DNA from: Gonapodya prolifera JEL478 | Taxonomy: Eukaryota; Monoblepharomycota; Monoblepharidomycetes; Monoblepharidales; Gonapodyaceae | Direction of reading: 5' to 3' | NCBI GenBank assembly: GCA_001574975.1 | Contig: KQ965738.1 | Location: forward strand, 364,277 to 428,276 | Length of the DNA stretch: 64,000 nucleotides | Shown: positions 24,623-63,345 of the stretch, piece by piece | Layout of the letters: the number at the start of each line of letters is the position of its first letter | Numbering within the stretch: position 1 is the first letter of the stretch | The notes under the pieces: model-generated | Database searches by the model: none | What the model saw: only the letters and a program-made list of their open reading frames with translations | What the model was told of the DNA's origin: nothing | Position numbers and translations under genes: made by a program

Positions 24623-27600
24623 ATGTCGTCCATCCTCGACGCGTCGCAAGCCCTGGGCCTCGAGCTGCCCCCACGCGCCCGGGCAATCCCACGCGCACCG
24701 GGAGTCGGAGGCGACGTGCGAGTGATTACGCCCGTGGGCCCGCCGGAGCGAATCGTGCGGCCGGAGACGGTGAGCGGCGTGCAGTTATTTGCGTGGTGGC
24801 ATGGGCGTGTGGGGGAATCGGATGGTCACGAGGACGCCCAGCGAGTTTGGGAGACATCGTCGATCGGCTCACACCTACTGACACATTTGCTTCCGTGTTT
24901 TGTTTCCGACATGCAGGATCCAGACCCAAGTGGGAGGAATGATTTGCATTCGATGCGGCGTGTGTGCCAACTGCTAACTGCCATGTCCAACGACCGTTGT
25001 GCTCGTGCCCGCCCCAGTGGACAACGCAGAGGACAGGAAAATCTTCCACCTGTCCCCGCCGCCCGTTTACCGCACGCCCAATCCACGCGAACTCGACGTC
25101 GTGTTTGTCGGGTCGGGCATCTCGGGCATGACGTTTGGCATTATGAGTCAGTGGAGGCTCAAGAATGGTGCGTGGTGCTTGGAGACAAGTTTTGAGCAAT
25201 CCATGGTTTTAAAATACATTGTTTTCTATCAAGTTAACGTTGTCATCTACGAGAAAAACGCATCATTCGGAGGTGAGTGCTACTGAACACTTGACCACCA
25301 GTATCGACTTCTCACAGTCCCTGCTTTCCACCTCCCAGGAACATGGTTCGAAAAGTATGTCACTCCTGCTCCTGCTCGCACCCCTCGCCACCGTCCCGCT
25401 CCACAATCTCTGACCTTATTTTCTTCCCTCTTTCACCTTCCAAGCCGGTACCCGGGCTGCAGATGCGACGTGCAATCCCACATCTACCAGTTCAGATTCG
25501 AGACGTTCGACTGGAGCGAGGCGTACGCACAGTGGGACGAAATCGTAAGCTTTCTCTCTTCCTTACTTCCTTCCTTCGTTCCTCCACCGTACCACGCCTC
25601 CCCCAAGTTCCACTACCACTCTTATGTGTTCGCCAAATACGGTCTGTCCCGGCTCGTGCAGTTCCGGCACGCGGTCGTGGGTGCCGACTACGACGAAGAA
25701 AGGGCAAAGTGGCGCGTGACGGTCGAGAAGACGGATGAGGTAACGGGGAAGAAGGAGAGGTTCGAGCGGGAGTGCGATGTGCTTGTTAATGGGACGGGGG
25801 TGCTTAAGTGAGTACCTTTTTTTGGGGGATGGGGATGGGGGGAGTGGGCGTGGGCGTGGGGTTGACAGAGGTGGTGAAACAACTTGTGCATATGCACTTG
25901 ATGGCAACTAACATTGTCATGCGCATTGTACCATATCCACAGCCGCCCCAAATGGCCCGACACACCCGGTGCGGAACTCTTCAAGGGCGAGCTCGTGCAC
26001 ACCGCGCAATGGGACGAAAGCAAAGAGTGAGTGCCGTCGTTGTGTGCCCCTTGTTTCCCTCCTGCTGCGCCTCACCTCACCTGCTCGCCACTCCCATTGC
26101 CCACACCCCCCACACCTCCAGTTCAGTCGACGGCAAAGTCGTCGGCGTGATCGGCAACGGCTCCACGGGCATCCAAGTAGTGCAATCGATCGGGTCCCGT
26201 GTGAAGCACATGGACCACTACGTGCGCACCCCGACCTACATGCAAGCCTACTTGGAGGGCGGGGTCAAGCTGTCCCCGCAGCGGCGAGGGCAGTTCAGGG
26301 ACCCCGCGTTCACACGGCAGTTCATGAGGGACACGTACATGAATAGGGAGAAGTACTGGGTCATGTTCACGAGCGCGGAGCATAAGTTGAATAAGCTGGT
26401 CGTGAAGGTATGTGGGTTGATGGATGGGGATTCTCCACCCATCCTCGCTTTTCCTTTTTTTTTTTTATGGTCGTGAAGTGACGATATTTTTTTTTTCTCG
26501 TGCAGAGAGCCCTCGAGTACCTCGAGAAGTCGGTAAAAGACCCTGAATTGCGCGCAAAGCTCACACCACACTTTGCATATGGATGTGAGTGGTCCTTCTC
26601 CTTCCCCTTTCCAACGTCCACCGCCACACGCTCCATCTCCTCACGCCACTTCCACCACCAACCCACCCACCCAGGCCGCCGCCCCATCTTCAGCGACGAC
26701 TACTACCCCACCATCCAGCGCCCCAATGTCTCCCTCCGTCGCGAGCCTATCAAGCGGTTCTGGGAAAAAGGTCTTGTGCTGGACCTCGGCGACGGGCGGG
26801 AAGAGATGCGCGAGCTCGACATGATCATCTGCGCGACGGGATTTGCGGCCAACTGGGTGTCAAAGTTCATGCCCGTTCGGGGAAGGGAACGACGGTTGCT
26901 CGCGGATGATTGGGCGTCACATCCGGAGGCGTATAGGACGTGTGGGTGTCGTGATTGTGTTTGAAAGGTTTTTGTGGGGTTTCTGATTAGGAATTTGGCG
27001 GCTTGGCGGGTTGTGCAGTGACGGTCAATGGGTTCCCGAATTATGTAAGTTGGCACATGGACCACTCATCACGCTCGGCGGGCTCTGACACACCATGCAA
27101 CCAGTTTATGATTCTAGGACCAAACACTCCCCCTACGCACAACAGCCTCATCATAAGCTGTGAACAGCAGGTGAGGACCTTACCGGTTCCCAACCAACCG
27201 GCGCCCCGATCTCATTCACTCCTCTCCTCCATCTCAGTGCAACTACGTGATGCAAATGATTCACGCCCTGCAGCACAACCCCCTGATCAAGTCCATCGAG
27301 GTGAGGTCCGGGCTCCGTCGGAATGGCTCAAGGACAATTTCTCTGACAAGTGGGGCATATAGGTGAAACTCGAAGCACAACGCGCCTTCGCCAAGGAGGC
27401 GCAGGACTGGCTGAAGACAAATTCGGTGTGGAATGTCGACTGCGGGGGGTGGTACAGGTGAGGGGAACGGAAGATGGTTCTGGTCGTTCGCGCGACGCCA
27501 ATTGCAACGTGTCGGTGCTCCACGCATAGATACAAGAACGGATACACGGTGCAATGGCCTGGTCCAGCACTTCACATGATAGATAGTATCCATTCCGTGG

Positions 27601-27807
27601 ATTGGCGACACTACAGCGTCGAGATGTGGAATGACCCATCAAGCTACTCCGTGAGTGCAATGCTCAATGTTCCGTGGGTAGGGTAGTGTGACGTTTATTT
27701 CTCTCGCACCGTCACACCCACAGATGCATACACCGTGGACCTTCAAGGCGCTGGATAAGCGGGAGCTGCGGGACGACGAGCTGACCATACAGGCTGCGAA
27801 GTTGTAA
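24623..27807 (+). CDS. Flavin monooxygenase of Baeyer-Villiger type
   Basis: About 17 exons: 24623-24769, 24917-24959, 25018-25167, 25234-25272, 25339-25354 (16 nt), 25445-25544, 25608-25807, 25943-26026, 26122-26407, 26506-26584, 26675 to about 26950, about 27000-27044, 27105-27170, 27238-27300, 27363-27457, 27530-27650, 27724-27807. The 26950-27020 junction is unresolved. Motifs in order: VVFVGSGISG (FAD GxGxxG), GGTWFENRYPGCRCDV (complete only after splicing the 16-nt exon), FKGELVHTAQWD (the FxGxxxHxxxW/D fingerprint of type I BVMOs), GVIGNGSTG (NADPH site) and ICATGF. It inserts one oxygen into a ketone to give an ester or lactone, using NADPH and O2, in the cytosol or ER. P450 B and a carboxylesterase lie within 11 kb. 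Confidence 0.9.
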
Positions 27808-27810
27808 ATA

Positions 27811-28049
27811 GCGTAGTTTTGCGATGGAAGAAATACGTGAATGTGCTGTTCCTCGTCTAATATCTGCGAAGCCCGTAGCGAGGGGTTGCGAGGGTAATAT
27901 TTTTGAACGGTCGCACGACTCTTCCCTTCACCCGCGAGGTTGGGCGAGGTTTGAGCTGACACTCCGTCCACTCGTTCACTACGGGCGAGCAATACCGTAG
28001 TTTGGTGGTGGAAGGAACAACATAGATGTGTTGTTCCACGTCTAATATT
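27811..28049. repeat. Imperfect direct repeat, two copies of about 53 bp
   Basis: 27811-27863 and 27995-28047 share CGTAGTTT, GGAAG, GTTCC and CGTCTAATAT in the same order and spacing, roughly 70-75% identical. The first copy overlaps the 3' UTR of the monooxygenase just after its stop. This looks like a local duplication of a gene 3' end. The segment between copies (about 130 bp) is unrelated. Confidence 0.6.
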
Positions 28050-28161
28050 ATATTCTATTAGCATCATCGCACACGGCCATAAAAATCATATTCTCGCCGT
28101 TTGGTTGCTTTGAACAGAACAATGTTAAGATCGCGCCGCTATTGAACAAACCCAAAACAAA

Positions 28162-30485
28162 TCAAAACTCACCATCCCTCAGCACACCATACGCCTCGCT
28201 GATCGCTTGGAATCGTCGAGTTGCGGCCTCTTTCTCCGCGGGTTCCGTGAAGCGGTCTGGGTGGTGTTTCATTGCAAGGCCGCGGAAGGCGGATTGGATG
28301 TCTGGTGGAAAGGAGTTTGATTTGCACGCCTTCTTCGTGAAATAGCACCGTGAGGGCCCAAAGCCCGCAGCCCACCCACCTTCCTTGGTCGCATTCTTCG
28401 ACACTCCCAAAGCCTGATCGGGGCCCCAAACTCATGAGTACGAACAATACAGCGGCCCCCCACCACGCCACCAAAACGTCACCTTATAGAACCCCCTCGG
28501 ATCCCCAGCACTACCCTGCGCTGCCTCGGCTTGCGCCCCTCTAGATCCAGATCCGCTTCTTGAACCCGTGCGGGCACCAGCGCCGGCGCCTCCACCATGC
28601 GTCCATCCGTCCCCTTCGGCTCGCCACTCCCACCCACTCCCCCGATGTGTCTCCTCCCACATCTGCTCTGCGCGCTGCTCGTAGCGATGCAGGATGCCCT
28701 GGATAAACAAGATCACGCGAGGGATGAATCTTGTGGTGGTGGTGTGCGATGTGGCATTTGGAAGCCGGCAAGACAGCAGGGACATGGTTAGAAAACACGT
28801 GACAACACTCAGCCGCCGCCAACACTGCACCCCCATTCACCCGCTACACTCACCTCGCCGCCCACCCAGCTACGACCGCCAGGCCCGCAGCCCACATCGC
28901 TGCAACTCCCCCTGCCGCACCCGTGACGGCGCCGAACAGCATGACGATCGCGGCTGTGGTTCCCGCGACTCTCTCCGCGGCATAAAACCGGGCCCCCGCC
29001 GCGCGGCCCGACAGGCCCGACACGAGCGTTGGGAATGCGCGGCCAAGGTAGCGTACCCGGAACGCGTAGGCGGGGAGGTACACCGGCGCGATCCGGAACG
29101 AACGCAGCCCGATGCGAAGACGGACGAAGCGTGTGTTGTCGGCGTTGAAGAGTCTGGTGGTGATGTGGGCGGGGGGGGGCGTGAGGTCACGGAGACACTA
29201 GGTGGGACGAGGCCATTTACCGCCGGATATCCATGTCAGCCTCGTAGCGCTCTCGCGCCTCGATGGCCACTTTCATCTCAGTGGAAGCGCGGTCGGGGCG
29301 GACGGTGAAAGGTTCCACGCGGGGAGGCGGCCTTGTGGGTGGGTGGACGATGGGCGAAAATGGTTTCGAGGTGTTTGACGTTGGAGAAGGACGGGCACTC
29401 CGCTCTCGGTTATGTTCCACGCTGCTGTGTGAGCACAACATGGTAGAGCGGGAGAGCTTTCCACGTTGTCCTGAGCCCATGTGCGGCACCGAAAGAATCC
29501 TTCCACAATCTAACTCCCAACCTTCTTACGCCGAAATTCCTCCCTCAAGCAAGCCAAAACTCACCCCTCCCCACCCTCCATCATCGCCCCTCCGAACTCT
29601 TCCGCCACCTGAACTGCCTCCGGATCGGCAACGGCGTCAGCCATGCCTCTGGGCCGGACCGAGGAGGCGTACCGCCGCAGAAAGGTGTAGTCGGGGTCTG
29701 AGGCGTCGTAGGTGCGGATCCAGTGGATGGGAAGGTCGATGGGGCGCTAGAAGGGGAAGGATATGGAAAGGATGTGTGCGAGAGAGGAATTGCACGAAGA
29801 GTTAGGGTGAAGATGCAGCCAACGTCGCCCGGCAGCTCGAGGCCGGCTTACTGACCCAATGCGTGACCTGCCCGTTGATGCAATTTAACAACGTGTTTAC
29901 AAAATGTCGCGATGGCGCCAGACTCACCCGCTCGGTCTCCCATCGCCTCGTCTGGAAATTGAAGCGACTCTCGTTCGCCTCGAACCCGACCTCGCCTCCG
30001 ACGACCTCCACGTCCACCTCGGCCCTTCCCGTCCAGAACGGCAAGTAAACGCGCTCTAGTTCCTCGAGTTCCGCGAAGGAAGAGTGGGTGAAGAATGTAT
30101 CGTGATAAGCGCTGAAGGCAGACTGCGCTTGGGTCGGGGAGAGCCGGAAGGGCACGCCGCGGGGTCGCGATGGGCCAGGTGGTGACCGGGGAGGGACGAA
30201 TTTCTCGCGTTGCTGTTGCAATAGGTTCGAGCTGTTGTGGAATGCCGCGCCTCGGGGTCGCGATGTACCAGATGGCGACCAGGGAGAGATATAATTCTGG
30301 CGCTGTTGTTGCGAGTAGTTAGAGGACGAGTGGAAGGGCGATCGGTGAGGAATGGTGTGTCGGGACAGTGAGGTGATGGTTGTCGGAGCGATTCGAAGGA
30401 TGATGGAGATGAATTTCGTGGAGGGTGGGACGGGGATGCAGAAGACTCCCAGAGAGAGGACATGGACGGGGGTGAGCGGGGCCAT
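28162..30485 (-). CDS. J-domain (DnaJ-type) membrane protein, probably mitochondrial
   Basis: Eight exons, high to low: 30485-29928, 29867-29856 (12 nt), 29746-29565, 29421-29221, 29153-28854, 28729-28483, 28413-28380, 28301-28162; phases agree, 557 aa. The N-terminus is basic and Ser/Arg-rich, like an import presequence; ATG 30545 is an alternative start. Then come WTGRAEVDVE and PIDLPIHWIRTYDASDPDY segments, a hydrophobic region VMLFGAVTGAAGGVAAMWAA (likely membrane span), and a C-terminal J domain GFYKALGVSKNATK ... MKHHPDRFTEPAEKEAATRR with the HPD tripeptide that triggers Hsp70 ATPase. The stop (TGA 28162) follows LRDGEF, so helix IV of the J domain is short. Skipping that stop by a splice at 28172 is possible but the next exon is not clear. 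Confidence 0.72.
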
Positions 30486-32893: not shown

Positions 32894-35608
32894 ATGGCTG
32901 CACTCTTCGAATCGCTCCTCGCTCTGCCATGGCCTGTCACCGCCATCTTGGCTGCCCTCTTCTTTGTAGCAACATTGATTCTGCTCTACCCAGACCGAGG
33001 TACTATCTCTTTTGCTCGCCATCTCCTCCACCACCAACTCACGCATCACTCCCGCAGCCTATGGAACTCGCTCGCGGTCCGACATTCCCCTCGCGCAAGA
33101 GAACAAACCCCTCATTGGCGCAATGGCTGCGATGGCACAGGGGATCGATTTTAGGTTGGAAAGGTTGCTCGAGCAAGTCAGGAGACAGGGCGGTGCGTAG
33201 GGGATTGCGAATCTTTGGCTTGAGGCTTTGGGTGTCACTGAGGCTCCTCCCTTCCCGACTGCCGAATGCCGATATACAACGCCGTGTATATCCAGAGGGA
33301 AAACCATACAGAATGACCCTATACAACCCCATGTTTGGCCCCATGGACATGATTGTTATCAGCGACGTGCAAGACGTGGAAACTGTTTTGAGAGAGTGAG
33401 TGCCTGTCACGTGTCGTCGGCACATTTTGAAACCTCTAAAATATGGCTACCTATCAGCCCCTACACTTTTGTCAAGGGCGGCTTGCTCACGTCGCTTCTC
33501 ACGGACTTTCTCGGTAAGTCCGCTCCTGCTCCTCGAGGCTGCTCTCTGCACATGCAACATGCAACGACTAACCCAAATTGTGCTCACCGCGAATTTGTGT
33601 TTTTTTTTTTTTTTTTTTGCACTTTGCAGGCCAGGGAATTTTCACCTCTGGTGCGTACCCGAGTCCCGTTCCACCGTACAAGCTCTTCTCCCATCTCACG
33701 CCCCCCGCCTCTTTTACACCTTCCCATCACAACCACTCCAACCCCCCTTAGACGGCGGTAAGTCCACCTCCATTTTCCCCCCTCTCTCTCCCCTCACCCC
33801 CTTCCACCACTCTTAGAACGCTGGCACGCGCAGCGCAAAACGGCCTCGCACGTGTTCAACGTCAAGAACTTCCGTAACTTCAACGGCGACTTTTTGCACG
33901 AAGTCGGGTACCTCATCAAGCACCTCGAGGCCGCGCGGGACGCGGGCGCGGTTGTGGACTTGCAGGATTTGCTGCTCAGGTGTACCTTGGACTCGTTTGG
34001 CCGCCTTGCGATGGGATCCGACTTTGGGTGCATTACCCAGCCTGGCTCTGTCAAGGAGGGGCGCTACGCCCTCCCCACGGTGGAGTTCATGGAGGCCTTT
34101 GACTACGTCAACGTAAGCAACTTTTCGTTATTCAACGGGCGACCTCACTCTATCGCTCACTCTGCACCCTGCACGTGCACTGTCATCCAGGGTACGGTCG
34201 CCGTGCGCGCCATGCAGCCGTTCTGGCAGCTCCAGGAGCGGCTCAACGGTACTACCAACAAGATCAAGGCGTGCCAGAAGATTATGTCTGAGTTCGCAGA
34301 CAAGGTCATCACGGACAAACGCCGCAAGATGGAAAAGGGTGAGACTATCGGCGAGGACGGCAAGAGCACCGACGGAAGGCACGCGGATATGCTCGGTACG
34401 TCAGCGATTGGGTATATTGCACGTTCCTTTGGTGCTCATGTCTTGCGCCCCGACTCCGGCCAAAAACAGACTACTTCATGCGCACAACAAACTTTGACGG
34501 AGGAGTTCCCGACGACCACGAACTTCGTGACGTTTGCATGAATCTCATCATCGCGGGCCGTGACACCACCGCCCAAACGTGAGTCCCCCTTCATCCCATT
34601 GTGGCCCAAGTTGCAATCACTAATTGGGACCGCTGCACGCACTCGCCTTATCAGTCTCACATGGGTCTTCTACATGCTCTCGTCTCACCCCGAGGTGGAG
34701 GCCAAGTGCCGCGAGGAAATCAACCGGGTGTTTGGGAAGGATGGGCAGCCAACTTACGAGAAGATCAAGGAGCTGAAGTACCTCACGGCGACGTTTAACG
34801 AGACGTTGCGTCTGCACGCCAACGTGAGTGCTTGAATTTCTCTTGCTATCGATCGTGAAGTCTCAAGTTTCTTGTATGTTCCAGGTGCCGTTCAATACCC
34901 CTACATGCACCAAACAGACCACTCTGGCCGGCACCGGAACTACGGTCTACCCTGGTGACATCATACAGTACTCGGTAAGTTGCTGTACGCGCGGCGCAGG
35001 GTAGCCACTTGAAACATCCCCTCTCATCACGGGCTTTGCTTCCTTTCGGCCAGCCTTGGGTCATGGGACGGCTCCAAAGCATCTGGGGCCCCGATGCCGA
35101 GGAGTTCCGCCCAGAGAGGTGGCTGGACGACGGGGGGAGTGTGAAGAAGGAAAACACGTTCAAGTGGCCTGTGTTCAAAGCTGGTCCACGAATTTGTTTG
35201 GGAATGGTGAGTGATCCTGACATGACGGTTTCGCTCCCGACATGTACCTCACCCGACTCGCAAACCTCACCAAGAACATGGCCACACAAGAAGCTGTCAC
35301 GTTTATGGCCCAGATCTTGCGAACGTACCGCCTGGTGAGTGGCCAACGCGGGACTTGGAGAAGGTTCGCCCACTGACGCCGCCAATACAAAATAGGAACT
35401 CGTCAACGAGGATGATCCGAGCAAGTGGGGCAAGTACGATGTTGACCCGGCCAAGAGACAGGGACGATGTGAGTCTCGAAGTTCCTCTTCAAAGCGAGTA
35501 AGACATTGACTAACGCAATCGTTCATCTTGTTCGCATAACCAGATTCTTCGGCGCTTACACTCGGTTTGAAAGGAACGGTGGACTTCAAGGTCCACTTGG
35601 TGCAATGA
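32894..35608 (+). CDS. Cytochrome P450, paralogue B (complete)
   Basis: Fifteen exons, 547 aa: 32894-32999, 33058-33192, 33296-33395, 33458-33513, 33630-33650, 33752-33757 (6 nt), 33817-34112, 34191-34395, 34470-34578, 34655-34823, 34885-34974, 35054-35206, 35275-35334, 35396-35468, 35544-35608. Every junction is GT-AG and in phase. Order of motifs: N-terminal membrane anchor, GIFTSDGERWHAQRK (C-helix, across the 6-nt exon), AGRDTTAQT (I-helix oxygen site), NETLRLH (ExxR), and FKAGPRICLG (haem-binding Cys). It belongs to the CYP4/CYP52/CYP86-like clan, typically omega-hydroxylating fatty acids or alkanes at the ER. Compared with paralogue A it has one extra intron (33514-33629, with a 19-T run near its end) and lacks two. 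The upstream BVMO and downstream esterase suggest shared lipid or ketone metabolism. Confidence 0.93.
33752..33757 (+). other. 6-nt microexon of P450 paralogue B
   Basis: ACGGCG between a TTAG acceptor and a GTAAGT donor; after splicing it gives Asp-Gly in GIFTS-DG-ERWHAQRK. Same place, length and phase as 939-944 in paralogue A. Confidence 0.85.
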
Positions 35609-36063: not shown

Positions 36064-38166
<2,103 letters not shown>

Positions 38167-38274
38167 GATGTTTTGGGATTCGTCGCTGAATCATCTGCAA
38201 ATAAGACGAGCTATACACAATATACAACCAATAAATAAAGTCAAGATAATAATAATTGCAACTTCTCCCCCCTA

Positions 38275-44491: not shown

Positions 44492-44581
44492 AGGGACAGA
44501 TCGATTCAGGTTTTGGGGGAATGTCCGAATTCGGACTCTTCAAAACCCCTCCACTTCCCGTCTTCCTGGCCTGCAGCCTTC

Positions 44582-45607
44582 ATGCATCCTCCGAAATCCG
44601 CCCATACGCAGCCCAAAGCTGTCGTCGTGGAGTTCATGGCCAACATTTTCCGCAACACGGACGCATCGCTGGCGCTTCTCGATAGCAAGGCTCTTTCCTT
44701 TGAATTCCTCCCCAAATCTATACGTGAGACACACCTCGCTTCGCGAGATGTCGACGTGGGTCCTCTCTGAATGACAGCGCCCTTTTTCTGACACGTCATC
44801 GCGGCGATGTGGATGTGCGCTGGGTTCGATAGGAACCCCGACGATGTCGTACCGCCAGTTCGCAATTTTTCTGAAGAACGAGCTCCTCCCGGTCTTTGCT
44901 GACTACCGCTGGAAGCCCCTCGCGTTCACGTGCGATGGGGGACGAGTTGCCGTGGAAGTGCGGTGAAACATTTGCGTGGTATCACTCATCTGTGCTCACT
45001 CGTGCGTTCTTCGCTACTTCTGTCTTCGATCGCCTCGATAACTAAGGCGGAGACCATTGGTCGGGCAAAGGACGGACGAGAATACCAACAACAGCATCGT
45101 AAGGGCGTTCTTCAATTTCACTGGAAAGCATTCGCTGGATTGATCTCCCCCTCGTGCTCACAGACATACTCTTTGTCGTGAAACGTGGCAAAATCGTGTC
45201 GGTGAGTCGAGTCGTCCAGGGTGCTTTGCCTAGGACAGACGAAACATCATCACGGTGTACCTTTCTCCCCTCACGCAATTCCGTTCCCACTCGCTCGGAT
45301 TCAGGTCCGCGACTACCTCGACACGTGAGTTCTCCTTGCTTTCCTTCCTCCACCACCAAGCATTGCTGGACCTTGCCGCCCAAATCAACACCATGTTGTT
45401 CATCACCCCACCATACCCCAACCTACCTCTGACCTCTCACACCCGGCTTTCAGCCTCTATTCGGCCCGTTTCTTCGCCACGTCCATTCCACCCAAGGACC
45501 GCCTTACAAATTCCGAGGCCGAGCTGCAGAACGACAAATCGGCACACGGCAACGGAAACGGGAGCGACACGGGGCACGATGGTGAAACAGCGAAGATGAA
45601 ATTGTAG
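44582..45607 (+). CDS. Small NTF2/SnoaL-like protein (putative, one frame problem)
   Basis: Readable exons: 44582 (or ATG 44513) to 44723, 44833-44962, about 45050-45140, about 45140-45201, 45305-45324 (20 nt) and 45454-45607. First part VVVEFMANIFRNTDASLALL; second ELLPVFADYRWKPLAFTCDG then GRVAVEVR; third NSIVRAFFNFTGKHSLD; fourth IDLPLVLTDILFVVKRGKIV; then VRDYLDT and an Asn/Gly-rich tail. The helix-helix-strand order with VKRGKIVSVRDYLD near the end resembles the NTF2-like (SnoaL) cone fold. Between the third and fourth parts the frame shifts near 45140 without a usable intron, so this is either damaged or mis-modelled there. Head-to-head with the kinase, whose start lies 22-91 bp away. 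Function unknown. Confidence 0.42.
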
Positions 45608-48396: not shown

Positions 48397-49182
48397 ATGG
48401 CAACCGTCGCACTTCGACCGACCCCACTGAACCTGCTGGACGCGTACCGAGCAGCTCCTGGCTCACCGTCGCTACCACCTCCGAGCTCACCGAGCGTAGC
48501 GGGCTCGGGAACATCCGGCTCAGACCACGGCGCGCTTCCTCTTTCCGACATCGACATCACCGCCTCCCACCTCATCGCCTCGCCATACCCAGACATCGCC
48601 AACCAGCTCCGTCTGGACGACCTGACGCTCCCCCTTCGCCTATTCGCCTTCGCCCTCACACACCTCCAACCCACCCGCCCCGACTACGCCACCGCTCCCT
48701 ACCTCGAATCGTTCAACTGGCCAACCGTGTTCCGCTCCTTGCGCGCCATCTGCGCTCGCGTGGGGTTCCGATGGGAACGGAGGGAATTCTACCTGGTTGT
48801 GTTCAGATCGCAGCTGAAACAGGATTGCGACTCGGACGTCCTGGGTAACTTGGACCAGCGATCGCATGAAGAAGCGTGCGCCAGTGGAGGCCTGCTCAAA
48901 TACTGGTTCGGCAGCACGAACGCCGAAATGCGGAACCTCGCAACCTGTGAGTTCTACCTCCCGCGTTTCTCTTCCGCCGCATCTCATTTCATCTCACTCC
49001 TCCCTTCCACAGGCATCTGGCGCAACCGTCAAGACGCCGCTGCGGGCGGTCGTGGGCCATGGCACGCCAAAGCGCGTGCATTTGCCCGACAAGCGTACGA
49101 GAAGATCGACTTCCAGACGTTTTGGTTCACGGTCGACGAGGGGGCGACGAGCTGGTACCTGGAGGAGTATGCGGAGCGCTAG
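48397..49182 (+). CDS. UPF0643-family protein
   Basis: Two exons, 48397-48946 and 49013-49182 (GTGAGT, CACAG; phase 1), 239 aa. Family hallmarks in order: LTLPLRLFAFALTHLQPTRP then DYATAPYLESFNW, FYLVVFRSQLK, ASGGLLKYWFGSTNAEMRNL then ATCIWRNRQDAAAGGRGPWH, and WYLEEYAER near the end. UPF0643 is a conserved fungal family without known function. The last part of the gene (from about 48886) is duplicated at 50853 in broken form. ATG 48397 is the first in frame after an apparent stop-rich leader. Confidence 0.8.
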   Translation: MATVALRPTPLNLLDAYRAAPGSPSLPPPSSPSVAGSGTSGSDHGALPLSDIDITASHLIASPYPDIANQLRLDDLTLPLRLFAFALTHLQPTRPDYATAPYLESFNWPTVFRSLRAICARVGFRWERREFYLVVFRSQLKQDCDSDVLGNLDQRSHEEACASGGLLKYWFGSTNAEMRNLATCEFYLPRFSSAASHFISLLPSTGIWRNRQDAAAGGRGPWHAKARAFARQAYEKIDFQTFWFTVDEGATSWYLEEYAER

Positions 49183-50313: not shown

Positions 50314-50330
50314 TCCGGGATGCCACAGAC

Positions 50331-50852
50331 AAATGGAAGTGCTTTTTATACGAAATGAAAAAATATATGTATCGACGATAAACCTCTCGCATGTAGTTAT
50401 CTGGATAAACTTTTACATGTATTCGTGATAACGGTGTGTGGTTCATGAGGGTACATGTCTCAAGATGATGCAGGGCGGCAAGCAGACACACCGCCACAAG
50501 TGAAAAAACGCTGGTAACAACCTTTTTGGGAAATTTTTGTTGATGTCACGTACAGGCGGAAAGGGTACGTGACATCATATATGGAAACCCCAAATCCCCT
50601 CCCCTCCCCGAACGAACACACTCAGATCCACCATCGCCCATTACCAACTGCCCCGCCAACGCACCCATCCGTCGCGGAGCTGGAACCGGAAGACCACACC
50701 CTCCCGGAGCACTCATGGTGGTAAGGAGGCACGTCGTCGCACACGCGTGGTGGTGTGAGGTAGTTTGCGACGGAAGGGGTGAGAGTGAGATGGTCGACCG
50801 ATAGGGACATGTATTCATTCGCTTGTTTGTTCGTCAAACACCGTACACCAAA
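50331..50852. other. Spacer between duplicated blocks
   Basis: No coding sequence supported. Ends at GCTTGTTTGTTCGTCAAAC (50821-50839), a motif repeated at 51255 and 52266. Confidence 0.4.
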
Positions 50853-51148
50853 GGAGGCCTGCTCAAGTACTGGTTCGGCAGCATGAACGCCGAAATGCGG
50901 AACCTCGCAACCTGTGCGTTCTACCTCCCGCGTTTCTCTACGCCCCGTCTCATCTCAACTCACACCTCCCCTGTTCCCGGCATCTGGCGCAACCGCCAAG
51001 ACGCCGCTGCGGGCGGGCGCGGACCATGGCACGCCAAGGCGCATCGTTTCCCCGGCAAGCGTACGAAAGGATCGACTTCCAGACGTTTTGGTTCACGGTC
51101 GACGAGGGGGCGATGAGCTGGTACCTGGAGGAGTACGCGGAGCGCTAG
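50853..51148 (+). pseudogene. Broken copy of the UPF0643 3' end (block B)
   Basis: Begins abruptly at GGAGGCCTGCTCAA, matching codon ~163 of UPF0643, with no N-terminal part. The splice donor is altered (GTGAGT to GTGCGT) and the acceptor CACAG is gone (TTCCCGGC), so the two halves cannot be joined. The tail retains FQTFWFTVDEGAMSWYLEEY in frame to a TAG at 51146. A truncated, non-functional duplicate. Confidence 0.75.
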
Positions 51149-51394
51149 AACCTGTCGGACTGCGATCTCTGCGTTCCGTTGCATATGCATTCGGTCGACG
51201 TATTGTGCATTGTTTAGAACTTGCAAAATTGTATACACTTAGATTGCATCATTCGATTGTTTGTTCGTCAAACTACCGTGACATTATACGGTCGTGGCGA
51301 TTAATAAAATGCCAAGCAGTCAGTGAGGGCATTGCCGACCCAGTCACATGTGTATTGCAAGAATGGTGTCATGATATGTGTATACAATTTTGCG

Positions 51395-52780: not shown

Positions 52781-54692
52781 ATGGCACCTTCCGTGATCGC
52801 GCGCCCGTTCCGCTACGACGACTTCACGCACATCAAGGTCGACTTCCTCACCGACGACCCTCGGATCGCAGTGTTGACGCTCAAGTGAGTTCCGTCCCGC
52901 GTTACGCCTGGTATTTTCTTGCTATTCATTCCGCCTGCTCTTTGCTCCTGCTCAATCGCGCGTCAACGGCCGCCTCGTAACCCCCGCTCCACTCACCTAG
53001 CCGCCCCGAAAAGTGAGACACCCCCCGTCACCTCCCCCTCGCGTCCCCTTAACTCATGTCCCCCTCCCCCAAGGCTCAATGCTTGGACGGACGTGAATGG
53101 CATGAGCCAGAGTATCGTCAGGGCGTTCAATCAGTTCGACAAGGATGACACCGTCAAGGGTTGGTTGTTGCCGGGGGTGCCTGGTCCTTGCGCGTTCTGT
53201 TAACCGTTATTTTGTTAGTCATCGTCGTAACTGGCGCCGGGCGGGCTTTCTGCGCTGGTGTAAGTGTTCCCCTCCTAAGCTCACACCCTTTTTTGGTACG
53301 ACCACCAAACGACAACGTCACTAACAATCCCCATCCCATCCCCGATCCAGGCCGACCTCTCCGCCGGCGGAGCCACATTCGGCGACGCCAACGCGACCGA
53401 GAACCCGGGTAGCGCGCGCAACATCCGCAACGCGAGGGACGGCGGCGGGCAGGCAGCGTTGGCGATTTCGAGGTGTAGGAAGGTCGTGATTGGCGCGAGT
53501 GAGTTTGAGTTGAGGGGAGTGGGGCGTGCGAACCACGGAAGACCAAGCTGTCCGAGCGCAAGCGAGGATACCAGGCCTAAGCGATGACCGAGGCTTTCTG
53601 CCGGAGGCGGATGATCGACGTGGAGATGTGGAGGGGAATACTCTCATGGGAAGGGTAGGGGGAGGGTACAGATGCGGGTGACAATAGAGGCAAGATAGCA
53701 ATAGCACCGGGAGGATCATCGTCTTGCGTTGAAACACTCGCACCAGCCACCCAACTGACGCTTCTCTCGCCCCACCTCCAGTCAACGGTCCGGCGGTCGG
53801 GATCGGCATCACCTTCACCCTCCCGATGGACTTCCGCATCGCGTACAAGGGCGCAAAGATCGGATTCGTGTTTGTCCGGAGAGGAATCGTGCCAGAGGCA
53901 ACGTCCACATAGTGAGTGCAGTGGATCGAGTGCGTCGTGGTCGTGCGAAAGAATCCTGACCTCGCTTACTTTTTCGGTTCCGGGGAAAAAGCCATCTTCC
54001 ACGTCTCATTGGGCACTCAAGGACGCTGTCGCTCATGCTGACCGTACGTGGCACTGCTCACTCCGTTCACTACTCCCATCTAACCCTTCATGTTCCGCCA
54101 ACCCCTCCCAGGGCGAAGTCTTCCCCGCCTCGCACCCCCTGCTCTCGCTGCTCTTCTACCAGCTCACCGACACGCCCGAGGCGTGCGTCGCGGCGGCTTT
54201 GGACCTAGCGCGCAATTTGGCCAAGAAGAACAGCACGGTCAGTATGGCGCTGGCCAAGCATTTGGTCTGGAAGGGCACCGCGACACCGGAGGAGCAGCAT
54301 TTGTTGGATTCCAAGGCCATGTATACGTGAGTCGGAGTCGGGGGATGGAGAGTGGTGGTTGTGGGTTGCACGGTGGATCTGACATGGGTGCTTTTGGGCA
54401 TGGCTAGAACGGGCAACAGCGTGGACTCGGCTGAAGGTGTCCAGTCGTTCTTGGAGAAGCGCGAGGTATGTAATTTGTTTTTCCCACCGCCTTTGTGGCG
54501 GTGCAATCACTCATGCACCTCCACGGACCACCCGCCCCACTTCGCCCCCACACGAAAACATAGGTCAACTTCAAGGGCGGTGTCGTCAAGGATATCGACA
54601 ACAACCCGGTCTACTCCGGATGGTACCCCTGGTGGGGCCGCGTCAGCACCGAGGGCGTGCCAAACTTGACTGAGCCCTTGCATAAATTGTAG
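52781..54692 (+). CDS. Enoyl-CoA hydratase/isomerase family protein
   Basis: Ten exons, 324 aa: 52781-52884, 53001-53012 (12 nt), 53074-53159, 53219-53259, 53351-53498, 53782-53911, 53992-54043, 54112-54326, 54408-54465, 54564-54692; all phases agree. The 12-nt exon completes the family motif LNRPEKLNAW. Other crotonase features: [20 protein letters not shown] (oxyanion hole), [20 protein letters not shown] (second oxyanion Gly), [15 protein letters not shown] (Glu-type catalytic region) and [20 protein letters not shown]. Acts on acyl-CoA thioesters, hydrating or isomerising the double bond in beta-oxidation or related pathways. No clear PTS1 (ends HKL) or presequence: C-terminal HKL is a weak PTS1-like tripeptide, so peroxisomal location is possible. 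Confidence 0.92.
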
Positions 54693-54885
54693 TTATGCGC
54701 TATTGCGTAAATAGTAAAACGGCCCCGCACTATTTGGATTGATCCGTGGCTGTGGGCGGGTCCAAGCAGTGCGGTGCCTCCTACAACTGCTTCCGTCAAC
54801 CTGCTGGGCGAGGCAAGCCGTCCCCCTCACTTTTTAAACCTCTTTCTCCGCTTTTTTTCCTACTCGCATTCCACCCCCCACACCC

Positions 54886-56129: not shown

Positions 56130-56441
56130 ACGGGGCGTGCTTTGGTTGTATAGAGTGCTGCGTCGACTTTAATTGTATTGAGGAAAATTGCTTAGATGTT
56201 GATTGCCTGAAAATGCAGAGCGGATTTGACTTGGATGCGCAATATGATGGTTCATGTCACTTCAGAACTGACCATCACAGAACAACGGCGTCCTCGTACT
56301 CACTTGCGGACATGGGCACTGGCCCTCTGGAAATGCTCCGCCGTGTGTCTGGTCGCCGAACCCGTGGAGCTGCCTCACTTCGATGGTGGCTGTGGCCTTC
56401 CAGTTCTCCAGCCTGCATAAGCCACGAGTCCCAACCGTGCA
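56130..56441. other. Intergenic, 312 bp
   Basis: 3' end of the carbonic anhydrase gene and upstream region of the F-box gene, same strand. No additional feature seen. Confidence 0.4.
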
Positions 56442-57875
56442 ATGGCCTCTACCGCCGATCCGGTTGGCATCCATGACCTCCCCAGGGACCTCCTGCTTCC
56501 CATCCTTTCTTACCTTTCCCCGCGTCACTTCTACGGCACTGCCACGCTCGTGTGTCGCGAATGGCGGTCTGTCGTGCACGCCGCATTCGGAGGCCGTGTG
56601 CGAGTCGCCGTGGCGTGCGCGTTTCAAATCGAGAAGCATCCTGCTGACGTCGACGACCGAATCCCGCCCGAGACCAAGTGGGAGGCCCTCTTGATGGACA
56701 GAATCGACCCGTTGGGGCTCCGCAGGACGCCGAATCGAGTGTACGTGCTCCCGCGGTTTGCCCCGCTGCGGCGTGGATCGGAAGATAGGGTGGTCGGGTG
56801 GGTTGCGGGGACGGCAAAGGTGGTGTTCTCGCTCAGTGAGGTCGGGGATCTGATTAGGGACGGGTTCGCGGCCACTGCGCGACGCAGGCTGGAAGCGAGT
56901 AACCGTTCCGCGACGGGCTTCGAGCCCCTATGCGCCGCCGCGTGGCTGAACTCCCTGCTGTCCGATCACGTGCTTGAGTTCCGGAACATTGCGAGCTTCC
57001 TCCGTGCAGACGCGTGCCCGTCGCTCATCGTGACGAGCGCTGACAACGCCGCAGAGTTCTGGGAGCTCCTGAAGCTGGAACGGCAGCCCTCTGTGCGCGT
57101 GTTGCGGCTGCACGCTGTGTCGCGGTGGTCGGGGCAGCCGCAGTCTGTTCCGCTCAGCGGGGAAGAACTTGCCCGGCTGCGCGCGAGCTTTCCCAACGCC
57201 CGAACGGTGGTCATTTACCCGTCGGAGAAGAGTGCGACGATCGAATTCGAAGAGCCCTTCCCCACAGCGGACGCCGAATCGTTCGACCATTTGGAAATCC
57301 GCACGTCGCTACTCTGGCCCGCTCCTCAGGACCTTCTCTCCACATCGCACGTGCTCCCGTTTCTCTCTGAGATTGGGACCTACCAAATATCTGCCGAACC
57401 AGCGTTGGTCCCCACGAGCCATTCGCATGATGGAGTCCCGCAAGGGCTTCCACAGCCCGCCTTGTCCATCAAGGTGCTCCACTGCTGGCTCGACACGCGA
57501 TCCATGGGCTACAAGGCTCCCAACCCCTACGGGACATGGATCGCGCACTGCTTCCCCAACCTCGTTCGGGTGCACATTGCGTTGTCGCTCGATGGGAGGG
57601 ACAACTCGGACACGCTGATCAGGGCGGATACAGCTGAGAGGTTCCGACAGCTGCTCGAGCGGCTTCCCAGAGGGGTGCGAACGGTGGCGGTGAGGCCGTC
57701 TGGTCATTTAACGGGGTTGGTTGAGGCGGGTTGGAGCGGCTACGCTGCTCTGGGAAGAGAAGCTGGAGTGAATGGAACGGAGCGGAGCCTTAGGAGAGTG
57801 CTTGCGAGATTGTGTGCAAAGGAAGGGCGGACACTCCTTGTTGAGGAGGAGGAAATCTTCGAGCATTTGAGCTAG
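56442..57875 (+). CDS. F-box protein
   Basis: Single exon, 477 aa, the only long intronless gene of this side of the window. The F-box lies at residues about 10-50: IHDLPRDLLLPILSYLSPRH then FYGTATLVCREWRSVV, with the conserved LPxxLLxxIL and CRxW pattern that binds Skp1 in SCF ubiquitin ligases. The remainder (about 420 aa) is a regular alternation of short strands and helices without clear leucine-rich repeats, as in many fungal F-box proteins of unknown target. An upstream ATG in frame was not seen. The neighbour at 58150 also has an F-box-like segment; no sequence kinship beyond that is evident. Confidence 0.85.
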   Translation: MASTADPVGIHDLPRDLLLPILSYLSPRHFYGTATLVCREWRSVVHAAFGGRVRVAVACAFQIEKHPADVDDRIPPETKWEALLMDRIDPLGLRRTPNRVYVLPRFAPLRRGSEDRVVGWVAGTAKVVFSLSEVGDLIRDGFAATARRRLEASNRSATGFEPLCAAAWLNSLLSDHVLEFRNIASFLRADACPSLIVTSADNAAEFWELLKLERQPSVRVLRLHAVSRWSGQPQSVPLSGEELARLRASFPNARTVVIYPSEKSATIEFEEPFPTADAESFDHLEIRTSLLWPAPQDLLSTSHVLPFLSEIGTYQISAEPALVPTSHSHDGVPQGLPQPALSIKVLHCWLDTRSMGYKAPNPYGTWIAHCFPNLVRVHIALSLDGRDNSDTLIRADTAERFRQLLERLPRGVRTVAVRPSGHLTGLVEAGWSGYAALGREAGVNGTERSLRRVLARLCAKEGRTLLVEEEEIFEHLS

Positions 57876-58149
57876 GACTCTCGTCGTTGAAGAGGAGGGT
57901 ATTTTTGAACATTTTACATGAATCAGGACTCTTGAGGTGGAAGAATATCTGAACATTTGAGTTTTAGCGCCTTGACTGGCACAAGCAAATAAATTTAATT
58001 GAACCAGAGCGGAATAATAGAGGCAAGATGGGGGACGACGAGACGAGGCGAGACATGAGTCATGTGGACCGTGCACATGCCGCAAATTTTGTGCGCCTCA
58101 CGTTGGAGGAGGGTCCCTGCAACTCACGAACGAAGGACAACGGAAGGCC

Positions 58150-61032
58150 ATGTTCCGCCAACTCCCGTTTGGTATGGGCGGGCGCACGCCTGGAACGGCA
58201 GCTGCGGTGGCGATGGCAGTGGGGGCGACGGAGAAGGGCGACAGGACAGAGAAGGCACACGACCGGGACACGGACTCCGTGGCATCGGGCGACGGCAGCA
58301 ACCCGCGCACTCCCCTGGCGTCGGTGGCAAAGCCGCCAGGCTCGCCCGCGTCCCAGGTCTCGTCGCTTCCCGCGCCACACTCACCAGCAACACCCACATC
58401 CCCGCTATCCCCACTTCTCGCAGGGCGCTCGCCCTCCCCGCCTAGCACACCGCACGCGTTTCCCCTCCCCTCCCTGGCCTCCGCTGCACTTGCGCCCCAC
58501 GGGTACTTGGCCGTGGGTCCCCACGCGGCACCATCTGCACTCGCGACATCGCACTCGTCCGCCTTGGCCCACGCGCTCCTCAACTCGCCAAAACGCCAGC
58601 GTCCGTCGGCGGCAATCCAGGCTGCGAGAAACCGCAGGTGGCGCAGGTCACGTCTCATTCCCGTTTCGCTGCCACTTCCGCCAGCAGATGCTCCATCACA
58701 CCACCACGCAGACCTCCAGCGTCTTCCCGTTCGGCCCCTTTCTACTATCCTCGCTCTTCTTGGACCTCGCTACGCTCTTCGCCTTGCTCAGTGCTCCAAA
58801 ACCCTCCGAAACCGCGTTCTCACCGATCCCGACCTCGGGGTATGGACCCACATTGAATTCTTCCCTGACCCGCGCGCAAAGCACGACCGCCGCGGGCGCA
58901 CCCGTCAGATCGACCTTGTGGACGACGACCTCGTATTCGACCTCTTTGACCCCTTGCCCGTGGACCCCAACAACGCCCAGCAATCCAGCGACCTGGATGA
59001 CGACGATGACTTGTCGGAGGCGCCTCAACGCGTGGAACCCGCTGCCGTGCGTCGCGCCAAGGAGCGCCAGGCTGCCGCGCGCGGGATCTGGGACGGCGAC
59101 GGCATCGACGAGTCCGCGCCTAGCAGTGGGGGAAGCAGACCCTCCCCGGCCTCCACACCCATGCCGGGGGCCTCCCCGCCCATGCCCACTGCGAGCGAGC
59201 CGGCGTACCAGCGCCTGTTCCAGCAGGGCGGGCCCTTCATGGGCGTCGGGCTGTCCGCCTTGAACCGGCAGAATACGGGAGCGTCCACCGCGACGGCTGG
59301 AAGTTCCTCCACCGTGCGACCGACCTCGCCTGCGGGTGGGGGGCTCAACAACAGCGGGAACTGGAGCTCGGGGGTTTCGATCGCTTCGACAGCCCTTCCA
59401 ACACCCATCACCCACCACGCCCCGCTCGGCATGGTCCCCTTTGCTCATGTTCCCGCGCCGCTCCCACTAACCCTGGGCTTGACCCTTGCGGTGCTTGCGT
59501 CGGTAGTGCGCATAGACCTGCAGTTCTCGACAGTGACAAGAGAAGGGCTGTGGTGCGTCGTGGAGAAGTGCGTCGCGTTGAGGGAGCTGTGGTGTACAGG
59601 AGTCGATACTGTGTGTCTAAGCAAGGTGAGTTTTTGAAGTGAACGGGACCTGCGAAAAGCCCATCCCAATGATTGTGGTCCAACTCTGATCCTCGTTCCC
59701 CGTTGTGTCGATCCCATACATAAGACGGACCTCCACTACATCCTCTCCCACATGCACCGCCAGCAGAAAGCACGTCTTGCCGAAGAGCGTCGCGCGCAGG
59801 CTCGAGCCGCCCGAATCGCCATCAGAGCACCCTCGGGTCCAGTAGCTGTTTCTCCTGGAGGAGCCTCAGAGATCGAGCACGAAGGGACGCTGCTGGACGC
59901 CCCCGATTACCCGGAAGACGGGCGCAAGACACCCACCGTGGAGAACATTTACGGCGATGAGCGACGTGGGTCTGCAAGCGAGAGAGCTGACACGCCAACG
60001 GGAGTTCCTGCCTATTCGGCCACCATCGTTCCGTTGGATGATCCGGGTCTGGCTTTGATGGGACTGGGCCCCGAGGATCTTCACGACGGAGGCGATATCG
60101 ACGGGGTGGCTGAAGAGGATGAGGATTCGTCCGAGTCGTTGGCGGAGTCGGACAATGGCGAGTTGCGGATCCCGGAGGACCCTTTTCCAAGCGCGGGACC
60201 CGTGCGACCGGGAGCTAAAGTGGGGATCGCGGATCCGGGCCCGTTGGAGCGCAAGCTGTCCGGATCTGTCTCGTCGCGGTCCAGGCGATCTCGCTCCAGG
60301 CCCAGGACGGGTTCGCGGTCCCTCAGCCGAGCGTCGTCGCGGGCGAGACGAAGGGACTCCTCCGCTGCTCCTTCTGCCTCGGGAGCACCCGGCGTTGGAC
60401 CTCGTGGGCGGAGATCCAACCGGCGCCGGATGGGAACTGCAAGGCCGGGCAGCCCAACGCCCTCTGCGGGCACAGAGTTTACGACGGAAGAAGACACGCG
60501 GGCGTCTGCGTCGTCATTTGGGGACTCGGAGCCGGACGATATGAGTGAGCTGCACGATGAGGACCCGCACCCGCTGCCGCCGGTGTCCAAGAACCTGCGC
60601 GTGTTTGGGTGCGTGGGGATTAAGATCCGCGGCGCGGCAAACTTGACCCCGGCCTCGGTGAAGCCGAAGTACCGGCCGTACCTGGGCCTGGAGCGGCGGC
60701 GGCACGACCCGTCGCTGACGGTCGCTGCATTCGTAGAGTCGGTGCGCCGCGTGGAAGAGTTCCGGTGCCCGCACTGCGACTGCGTCGACTGGGTCGCGGC
60801 AAAGGAGCAGTGTCGTGGGTGCGGTGTGCGTAAGGCGTGCATGGCGTGCTGGAGGACTCTCGAGGCCACGGGACAGGGGACACGGTATGGCGAGACGTGT
60901 GCGGGTTGTAAGGGATTTTGGTGCGAAGGGTGTGGGCCGTCGGTGTGGGGGCAGGCAAAGAAGGACAAGAAGAAGAAGGGGAGACGGTCGGTTAGGAAGT
61001 GTAGGGAGTGCGCGGGGATGGGGGTGGATTGA
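58150..61032 (+). CDS. F-box-like/LRR protein with a C-terminal cysteine-rich domain
   Basis: Exons 58150-59625 and 59725-61032 (phase 0), 927 aa. N-terminal 180 residues are Pro/Ser-rich. LQRLPVRPLSTILALLGPRY then ALRLAQCSKTLRNRVL is an F-box-like segment, followed by DPDLGVWTHIEFF. After an acidic and Ser-rich insert, a short leucine-repeat-like part follows: LAVLASVVRIDLQFSTVTRE then GLWCVVEKCVALRELWCTG. Exon 2 is charged and Arg/Ser-rich, then a compact Cys-rich end: FRCPHCDCVDWVAAKEQCRG, CGVRKACMACWRTL, ETCAGCKGFWCEGC and KCRECAG, eight or more CxxC-type pairs expected to bind zinc. A substrate receptor of an SCF complex is likely; the Cys-rich tail may add a second binding surface. Confidence 0.75.
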
Positions 61033-62249
61033 GAACCGTTGTGTGCGTTGGGGCGTAGCTGTGAACTTTATCATTTTGCAAAATCGATTTTAAATGGTTC
61101 GCTGGAGGTGCTACGTCAATGACGTCAACGTTCGTAGTATAAGAATTGATGAAAGCTCGAACGAGAATGTTTAAACCGCACTTTTTTAAGCATTTACCTG
61201 GAATTTGTCCTGACTGCAAGGCCTTGATCGTTGCGAACAAGTTGTTGAATATCAGTCGCTCCCTATTTACGTACGTATAAGTCAAGGAAGTTCCTACTGC
61301 CACATGAGACGACTCGCGTCTTTTTGCGTGTACTTTTACGTTCCGCTCTTCAACTTCCCCGGCTTCGACCGTACACGGTCTTTGGAAAATGGGCGAACAC
61401 GTGATAGTGCATTGTAATTGAGTAACAGACAGCAAGTTTATCAGCTAGAGGGCCAATAATAAAGCTGGAATCGTGAAGTTGGCATTTCACTGATGAGCAA
61501 TTGGCTCCCTTCCCTTCCGTTTCTCCCCCCCCCCCCCCCCACGCCCCCTATCTCATCCCAATTCATGACCCGGAAAACATGATTCGCGGAGTCCACCCAC
61601 TCTTAACGCCCACAGGGTACCTGTACCGGGCGGCGAGCACGAGTCTTCTCGTTAAACTGGTCACGATGATACGTCCCGGAACTCCAGGTTGCGCAATTAC
61701 GGCGTTCATGTCATGGTCGCCGATGCGACTTCGCAGATTGATATTGGCACACGGTGTAGTTGCAGAGCGGGTGAGTTCGACCCTGGTGCACCACACAAAC
61801 CACCCTCCATGTTCCCACATGCACATGAATTAATTTTGACCGGCTTTGAGGAGAGTCGCACGTTGATCTACGTAGAATGCTTCTCCGGTGAAGAGAAAGA
61901 GCTCATCGGGTCACCTTTTGCAGCAACTTCCGCGACCAGGCATGCAGTTGGACGGTCGACAAATAACAGTTCGGAATGATGTTGCAGAATGTGTCACCAG
62001 TTTCTAATTTGACAACTTCACCAAAAGTTCACACACGCTTCAGAGAGCATTCTCGGATACACAAACACAAGATTGGGGGGCACTAAACCTGCCGACTACT
62101 AAGACTGTGAGAGCTCGTTCTTTTAAGACCTGTGGAGCAATCTGTAGGAAAAGTATATCGTGGATATGTCGGACTCGGTGAGGCGACACGAATATACAAA
62201 GAATATATCTGGTCTTCACCAACACCTCTCCTTCACCGACAGACACACG
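61033..62249. other. Intergenic, 1.2 kb with a C16 run
   Basis: Contains C16 at 61525-61540. Frames crossing the region lack partner exons; one plus frame (61579 to about 61771) ends in a good GTGAGT but no exon follows in phase. Confidence 0.4.
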
Positions 62250-63345
62250 ATGCCAGATCAATCCTCCTTGCTTGCGCGCCTATCCAGTTTTCTTCCCCAG
62301 ACTCCGATTGGTGTCTTGAAACCCCTCGCCGCTCTCCTCCTCGCCGCCAACTTCCGGAATCTTCCCCTCGTGTGGCACCTCTACACCGCCCGAGTTACCG
62401 TCGCTGGCGCAATCTGGAGACGGGCTAGAGATACGACATATCAGACACTTGACAAAGACGCGAGGGGCGAAGCGATTGCGCAAGATTTTTTCGCCCCTCG
62501 TGTGTTAAAGTGGAGAGTTACACCGGGAGATTGCGACGTGAGCTGAACGACGAGTTGCGTGGGGACTTAATGTGTCGTGTTCATAGGCCTTTATTGGTGT
62601 CCATTTAGGCGAACATGCACCTGTGAGGCACCATCTCTCGATTTCATCTTTCAATAAGCGGGCTGACGTGCATTACTCATCATCACCAGGAATAACGCCA
62701 CCTACTACATCTTCGCCAACTTTAGCCGTGACGACCTCCTCTGTCGTTCCGGTATCGGCTACTTTAACGCGGACCCACGCTCACAGGGAAGGTTGATTCT
62801 TGGTGGCACCGAACTCGCGTTCTTGAAGGAGATTCCGCTGGGTAGATTGTTCGTGGTGAAGAGTAGGTGCGTAGTTGTGTTATTTGGGTGTGCGATGGTG
62901 TCGTGGTATTGACTGTGCTGTGCTGGCGGCAATTCAGATGGGTTACATTCAACGAAAAGTGGTTCATTGTTGAAACAAGGTTTGAGGATCCGTCCGGTTC
63001 CATCTTGTACACTATCGGGTACGTATCATCCTAAGGAACGCTCGAAACAGTGACATGCTTGAACTCGAACCATTGCACCCGCTGGTAGTCACGCCAAAAT
63101 GATTGTCAAGCGTGGGGGCAGAACGGTGTCTCCTGACCAGGCACTCAAAGACATGGGAGTGCCAGATCGATATTGGAAACGAGTGAGTGTATTACTTTCG
63201 TCGTGTGGTGAAATTGAATTGCATGCATGTCTTCTTATCTCATGTAACTTCCTAGCCCGTCCCCTCGTGCTGTCAAGCAATCATGGAAAGCAACAAGACG
63301 CCCGAGTTCCATCGAGATATCGACGCTTTCGTGTCCCGTCTGTGA
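62250..63345 (+). CDS. THEM6-like thioesterase-fold (4HBT) protein
   Basis: Six exons, 62250-62537, 62609-62622 (14 nt), 62690-62866, 62938-63018, 63089-63182, 63256-63345, phases consistent, 247 aa. The N-terminus carries a hydrophobic anchor-like part (GVLKPLAALLLAANFRNLPL). The hot-dog core appears after splicing the 14-nt exon: TPGDCDANMHLNNATYYIFA (the DxNxHMNNAxY signature), then FSRDDLLCRSGIGYF, GTELAFLKEIPLG, WVTFNEKWFIVETRF and HAKMIVKRGGRTVSP. This is the THEM6/acyl-CoA thioesterase-like group found in fungi and animals, probably ER- or membrane-associated; the catalytic residue of true thioesterases is not certain here, so it may bind rather than hydrolyse acyl groups. Confidence 0.85.

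Follow-up and report, generated by a model that had tools for sequence, protein, structure and literature searches.

Can exons of a few nucleotides, set in the midst of otherwise unrelated genes, be genuine coding segments, and if so, do they call for a splicing machinery that is out of the ordinary? The question is raised by a 64,000-nt stretch of the genome of the fungus Gonapodya prolifera JEL478 (GenBank assembly GCA_001574975.1, contig KQ965738.1, positions 364,277 to 428,276 of the forward strand), referred to here as the window and numbered from its first letter. An earlier, sequence-only reading of the window by a model had listed six very short exons in unrelated genes, in addition to a pair in a P450 gene, and had proposed that splicing in this genome is tolerant of tiny exons throughout. 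Here a coding microexon is an internal exon of 30 nt or less between a canonical AG and a canonical GT; the host genome is the 47.6 Mb assembly of 207 contigs, and these contigs give the paralogues their labels (C8, C55 and so on). Judged from the genomic sequence, the exons upheld below are very probably genuine coding microexons that are needed for intact enzymes. In the families sampled, exons of 10-30 nt are no commoner than random placement of introns would make them, and only those shorter than 10 nt are depleted.

The genes and exons on which the argument turns are the following.

25017-27807, plus strand: BVMO (flavin monooxygenase) gene, modelled without a defined 5' end; Pfam NAD_binding_8 (36.4 bits) and FMO-like (32.3 bits), each above its cut-off
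About 25017-25167, 25234-25272, 25339-25354, 25445-25544, 25608-25807, 25943-26026, 26122-26407, 26506-26584, 26675-26941, 27019-27044, 27105-27170, 27238-27300, 27363-27457, 27530-27650 and 27724-27807, plus strand: exons of the BVMO gene
25339-25354, plus strand: 16-nt BVMO microexon, encoding G|TWFE|N of GGTWFENRYPG
27019-27044, plus strand: 26-nt BVMO exon (TVNGFPNY), absent from the earlier list
52781-54692, plus strand: enoyl-CoA hydratase/isomerase (ECH) gene of 10 exons; Pfam ECH_1, 134.6 bits, over cut-off
53001-53012, plus strand: 12-nt ECH microexon, encoding N|RPE|K of LNRPEKLNAW
33274-35605, plus strand: P450 gene of 13 modelled exons, the model being without the 5' part; Pfam p450, 236.8 bits, over cut-off
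33630-33650, plus strand: 21-nt P450 exon, encoding G|QGIFTS|D
33752-33757, plus strand: 6-nt P450 microexon ACGGCG, the core of D-G in GIFTSDGERW
1-1337, minus strand: second P450 gene, running off the start of the window and including a 22-nt exon at 1155-1176
939-944, minus strand: 6-nt microexon ATGGAG of the second P450 gene, in the same place as 33752-33757
44582-45607, plus strand: NTF2/SnoaL-like gene of 6 exons; match to 3fgy_A (NTF2-like), E 3e-4
45305-45324, plus strand: 20-nt NTF2-like microexon, encoding VRDYLDT
62250-63345, plus strand: THEM6-like thioesterase-superfamily (hotdog) gene of 6 exons; Pfam 4HBT_2, 58.2 bits, over cut-off
62609-62622, plus strand: 14-nt THEM6-like microexon, encoding ANMHL of DANMHLNN

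All six of the exons first listed lie where the sequence-only reading had placed them, each flanked by AG and GT, and four of them (in the BVMO, ECH, NTF2-like and THEM6-like genes) held up, as did the P450 pair. The tests made use of a home-made splice-aware protein-to-DNA aligner with hand-set splice scores, the score units of which are BLOSUM62 half-bits. In 400 trials per exon, the composite intron around the exon was shuffled with its dinucleotides kept, and the result was aligned with bacterial proteins (BVMO and ECH), with a segment of 3fgy_A (NTF2-like), with the remote reference 2hlj_A (THEM6-like) or, for both P450 exons, with our own spliced model of the paralogue C8_262, which is contiguous over the DG motif. 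None of the 400 shuffles reached the real score for the BVMO, ECH, NTF2-like, 6-nt P450 or 21-nt P450 exons.

Intronless bacterial proteins recover the BVMO and ECH microexons to the base with nine of nine references. For the BVMO exon, all five references are exact and the masking of either splice site costs 18-40 score units; the 26-nt exon of the same gene is likewise recovered with five of five. The bacterial BVMO genes were fetched by patterns that include FGGTWFEN from the spliced query, which makes this recovery partly circular. The ECH exon provides the cleaner test, its bacterial references being neighbours fetched alongside the BVMO genes: it is exact with four of four, and masking either site costs 9-24 units. 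Omission of the 12-nt exon lowers the ECH_1 score from 134.6 to 120.1 bits (14.5 bits lost), and omission of the 6-nt exon lowers the p450 score from 236.8 to 226.6 bits (10.2 bits lost). Skipping the exons of 16, 14 and 20 nt breaks the frame and skipping those of 12 and 6 nt removes motif residues; four of the nine window exons of 30 nt or less are multiples of three. When the masking test was extended to 31 small exons, 28 of them lost at least 8.6 units with either splice site masked.

The paralogues tell the same story for the shorter exons. The two P450 genes of the window are 73% identical over 252 columns, and their 6-nt exon is found in a third gene, on C55, so that ACGGCG, ATGGAG and ATGGAA all specify D-G with third-position changes, which is the pattern that selection on the protein would leave. 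The 21-nt exon recurs in the paralogues C55 and C15. The 20-nt NTF2-like exon has a counterpart in the paralogue C91 (IREYVD(S) as compared to VRDYLD(T) in the window); the window gene itself scores 24.0 bits with Pfam SnoaL_2, under the cut-off of 27. The paralogues C99 and C76 have the 14-nt THEM6-like exon in an identical codon position and phase, and C9 has a 23-nt version. Taken together, the alignments indicate that the paralogues keep the 14-, 20- and 6-nt exons, the differences being for the most part synonymous or conservative.

Among related P450 genes we also observed a degenerate copy, L103 (G000:C15:147000-149400), that keeps the 21-nt exon but is without the 6-nt exon, a single 133-nt intron being present there, as well as two very similar genes, L101 (C100) and L108 (C31), of 19 and 20 modelled exons, that have exons of 10, 18, 23, 27 and 29 nt in common.

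The sequence-only reading had further remarked that the residues encoded are textbook family signatures. The exons do encode motif residues, but the association is in part a matter of how such exons come to be noticed, because only a conserved motif betrays an exon of 6-20 nt.

How common are such exons, and is their splicing special? The paralogue alignment comprised 36 gene rows, from which we dropped three with scores of 250 or less (BVMO C174, ECH C13_538 and ECH C93) and the overlapping BVMO C55b; exons were counted in 32 genes (6 in the window and 26, of four families, outside it), and eight further P450 loci of low score (L001-L008) were left uncounted. Of the 202 internal exons in the 26 paralogues outside the window, 28 measure 30 nt or less, and these are spread over 13 of the 26 genes; for the six window genes the count is 9 of 46. 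The length spectrum was drawn from 31 genes, the degenerate P450 on C15 having also been removed and the NTF2 paralogues C91 and C90 standing outside it, and was compared with 2000 sets in which the same number of introns was dropped uniformly at random into the same coding lengths. Exons of 10-19 nt numbered 15 as compared to 19.6 in the random sets, those of 20-30 nt 18 as compared to 19.8, and those of 9 nt or less only 3 as compared to 19.3. With one gene kept per close cluster, the observed and random counts were 12 and 15.2 (10-19 nt), 13 and 15.2 (20-30 nt) and 1 and 14.8 (9 nt or less); with the 22 genes outside the window that are left when close copies are removed, they were 9 and 13.0, 11 and 13.2, and 1 and 12.8, respectively. 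In each spectrum, none of the 2000 random sets was as low for the shortest class. Failure of the aligner to see such exons does not by itself explain the shortfall below 10 nt, because 84% of simulated exons of 3-9 nt were recovered (662 trials, at sites in well-aligned exons).

Unusual splice sites or intron lengths beside the microexons were not borne out: the introns next to exons of 30 nt or less have a median length of 72.5 nt (n=66) as compared to 71 nt elsewhere (n=214; p 0.84), and splice-site composition is similar in the two groups, both of which are pulled towards the consensus by the scoring. The introns of the P450 gene at 33274-35605 measure 59-116 nt. From its short GT-AG introns and its kinds of gene, the window would pass for fungal DNA of a basidiomycete-like character. 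The proposal of the sequence-only reading is half borne out: across the sampled families tiny exons are a frequent feature, but nothing special shows in their introns or sites and there is no excess at 10-30 nt. What the spectrum of the 31 genes points to is a limit of the machinery near 10 nt, and no unusual tolerance.

We consider it highly probable that ordinary evolution, together with ordinary splicing by intron definition, made these microexons and processes them. In an intron-dense fungal genome, introns of ~70 nt would have arisen at numerous dispersed sites, gain having presumably prevailed over loss, and wherever two of them landed a few codons apart, the piece between would have become a microexon; that observed counts at 10-30 nt match random placement is the reason to think that dense, scattered introns suffice to produce this size class. 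Each short intron would be recognized across itself, such that exon length could fall to ~10 nt at no cost; in still smaller exons, the splice sites at the two ends probably get in each other's way. Exons of that size are uncommon but can occur, the 6-nt P450 exon being an example, with its two introns presumably removed in turn. The requirement for the exons by homology, their inheritance among paralogues, the ordinary flanking introns and the length spectrum are the parts of this scheme that were observed directly. In two families, the distribution of introns adds a historical dimension. Intron 39.2, after the ECH microexon, is common to two paralogues and intron 35.2, before it, occurs only in the window gene; P450 intron 69.1 occurs only in a four-gene clade (support 98/100), and intron 67.1 is found also in C100_24. 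These distributions point to a second intron having landed beside an older one.

Since the introns here are short, the default route of intron definition should be enough for their removal. Intron definition has been inferred for basidiomycetes from patterns of splice variants (PMC2397502). In C. elegans, microexons are described as dependent on PRP-40 unless the flanking introns are very short (PMC8378409), and for a one-nucleotide exon of Arabidopsis, intron definition with sequential removal has been proposed (PMC4674806).

The alternative that survives best, although we regard it as unlikely, is that conserved motifs such as GGTWxxNRYPG are hotspots that attract intron gain and thereby yield microexons repeatedly. 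The BVMO genes provide the case for it. Codons 63-78 (window 25270-25480) hold 11 distinct intron positions over eight genes, namely the window gene and paralogues that include L039, L047, L050, L056, L042 and L045, and the motif is cut into microexons in four ways: 16 nt in the window, 15 + 27 nt in the nearest paralogue C55, 20 nt in C2:906k and 17 nt in C16. The significance of this clustering varies, however, with the width of the scan and the genes kept. For distinct positions in a 16-codon scan, p is 0.001 with eight genes, 0.006 without the window gene and 0.034 when C16 is also left out; the corresponding values are 0.006, 0.10 and 0.74 for a 10-codon scan and 0.005, 0.018 and 0.24 for a 24-codon scan, and p ranges from 0.02 to 0.66 when all introns are counted. 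The 17-nt exon of C16 also lies at the margin of its locus. In the P450 and ECH families the scans showed no cluster, and a general clustering of introns there was rejected. The clustering at the BVMO motif is no more than suggestive. The joint proposition that exon length in this genome is effectively neutral down to ~10 nt, with a sharp floor below, and that this motif of fungal BVMOs is an insertion hotspot with several independent microexon origins, strikes us as unlikely when taken as a whole; if it were true, exon-length spectra of intron-rich fungi would be a gauge of how closely splice sites can physically crowd under intron definition.

The recurrence of microexons in unrelated genes might also bring to mind a counterpart to what animal neurons have, either a dedicated microexon programme or an expanded repertoire of exon-definition factors. 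The microexons of animal neurons are often regulated cassette exons with lengths that are multiples of three, and SRRM4, through its eMIC domain, is their activator. A search of the genome with the eMIC domain SRRM_C gave no match over cut-off, the best reaching 16.1 of the 27 bits needed, in a search that had no eukaryotic positive control and was not extended to other factors; cwf21 was found at 64.3 bits. The ordinary introns and sites, the lack of an excess at 10-30 nt and the broken frames or lost motif residues that skipping would cause also speak against such a programme, which we think very improbable.

We give an equally small chance to the explanation that the microexons are artefacts of modelling, with neighbouring exons extending further or one longer intron being correct. 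It has its footing in the two remaining exons of the sequence-only reading, neither of which found support, and, to a degree, in the THEM6-like exon.

29856-29867, minus strand: claimed 12-nt J-protein exon
23033-23063, plus strand: claimed 31-nt exon of a GATA gene

For the J-protein exon an artefact is a live possibility: an in-frame candidate that equals or betters it turns up in 26 of 500 shuffles, the exon's donor GTCAGT scores below a donor 4 nt further on that would break the frame, and the frame is kept when the exon is left out. This gene has no Pfam match, and a search of its own genome returned only the gene itself. The GATA exon, a candidate by its good splice-site scores, exceeds at 31 nt the 30-nt limit for microexons. 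The shuffle test of the THEM6-like exon is weak when taken alone (5 of 400 shuffles reach the real score, the remote reference 2hlj_A matching at E 0.077), and with this reference the aligner starts the exon 3 nt inside the start first claimed. Set against this are the loss of score by the BVMO and ECH exons with either site masked and every bacterial reference, the failure of all shuffles to match the BVMO, ECH, NTF2-like and P450 exons, and the persistence of exons in paralogues while the introns around them differ in length and sequence.

That introner-like mobile introns seeded the microexons is scarcely credible, in that the single match between introns of unrelated genes (67 nt at 84%, BVMO C55 and P450 C8_627) involves no intron that flanks a window microexon, the other matches listed among the 280 introns of the aligned genes are within the same family and mostly at homologous sites, and no near-identical introns at unrelated sites, as such an element would leave, were found among the 280. 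The 67-nt match lies in a 266-nt BVMO intron (L039) and a 300-nt P450 intron (L105) and is perhaps a remnant of a mobile element.

Ordinary intron gain and intron-definition splicing thus being the explanation that we prefer, several points nevertheless weigh against it. The inclusion of the exons in mRNA is predicted from the genome. Three of the 31 small exons (BVMO C16, 19 nt; ECH C36, 14 nt; NTF2 C91, 16 nt) fail the masking test, and the donor of the ECH C36 exon can be masked at no cost, so that some of the exons counted are weak. The hand-set splice scores push every inferred intron towards consensus sites, and the window proteins used to align the paralogue rows contained the microexon residues from the outset; for the THEM6-like and NTF2-like exons, the homology and paralogue evidence is not fully independent, although the matching DNA is. 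The families were picked via a window microexon, and the frequencies given above cover these families rather than the whole genome. The null model assumes uniform placement of introns and the detection trials used well-aligned exons; some scans show the BVMO introns concentrated at codons 63-78, which speaks against pure randomness. Lastly, the ECH and BVMO trees do not tell gains of introns from losses.

In fungi of this sort, enzymes are liable to be broken at key motifs when genes are annotated automatically. The results also offer a testable view, in which fungal microexons longer than ~10 nt reflect the chance closeness of short introns, with a splicing limit below that size and no need for a new splicing system. 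To the eye, part of a gene (GGLLKYWFGS...NAEMRNLATC) together with the sequence that follows it appears twice elsewhere in the window, at 48860-49180 and 50850-51160, ~2 kb apart, and the second copy looks truncated.

How do these exons compare with known ones? The closest parallel is in the P450 genes of Phanerochaete chrysosporium, for which Doddapaneni et al. (2005, PMC1184071) describe microexons of 2-10 amino acids, the shortest of 6 bp, distributed among many of the genes alongside numerous small introns; 41 of the genes have exons no longer than 29 bp. The 6-nt and 21-nt exons of the window are similarly of 2-10 amino acids and lie in a P450 gene with short introns; the differences are that microexons occur here in BVMO, ECH, hotdog and NTF2-like genes as well, and that the median intron is 71 nt as compared to the 45-55 bp called frequent in the Phanerochaete genes. 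Two further cases are described by Nelson and Syed (2026, PMC12940212): CYP621A of Fusarium has a one-nucleotide exon, and the I-helix motif of P. chrysosporium CYP5141A1 contains one of 8 nt. As in those cases, a tiny exon was found within a conserved P450 motif by homology and phase, but the motif is a different one, and the Fusarium exon has transcript reads whereas the exons of the window are known from their sequence. The conserved microexons of plants, 1-15 nt long (Yu et al. 2022, PMC8831610), are likewise coding, keep their position and phase across a family and often escape annotation, though they belong to plants and were found with RNA-seq. A switch-like microexon of Trichoderma is described in another report (PMC11121469). 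With the neural microexons of animals (PMC8378409), the window exons share their size class; they differ in that they carry motifs, in that several are not multiples of three and in that their flanking introns are short. Our literature searches were not directed at the BVMO, ECH, hotdog or NTF2 families by name, and we do not claim these cases as unreported. The microexons of the window are a new set within an already known kind, and what is modestly new is the length spectrum together with the repeated cutting of the BVMO motif.

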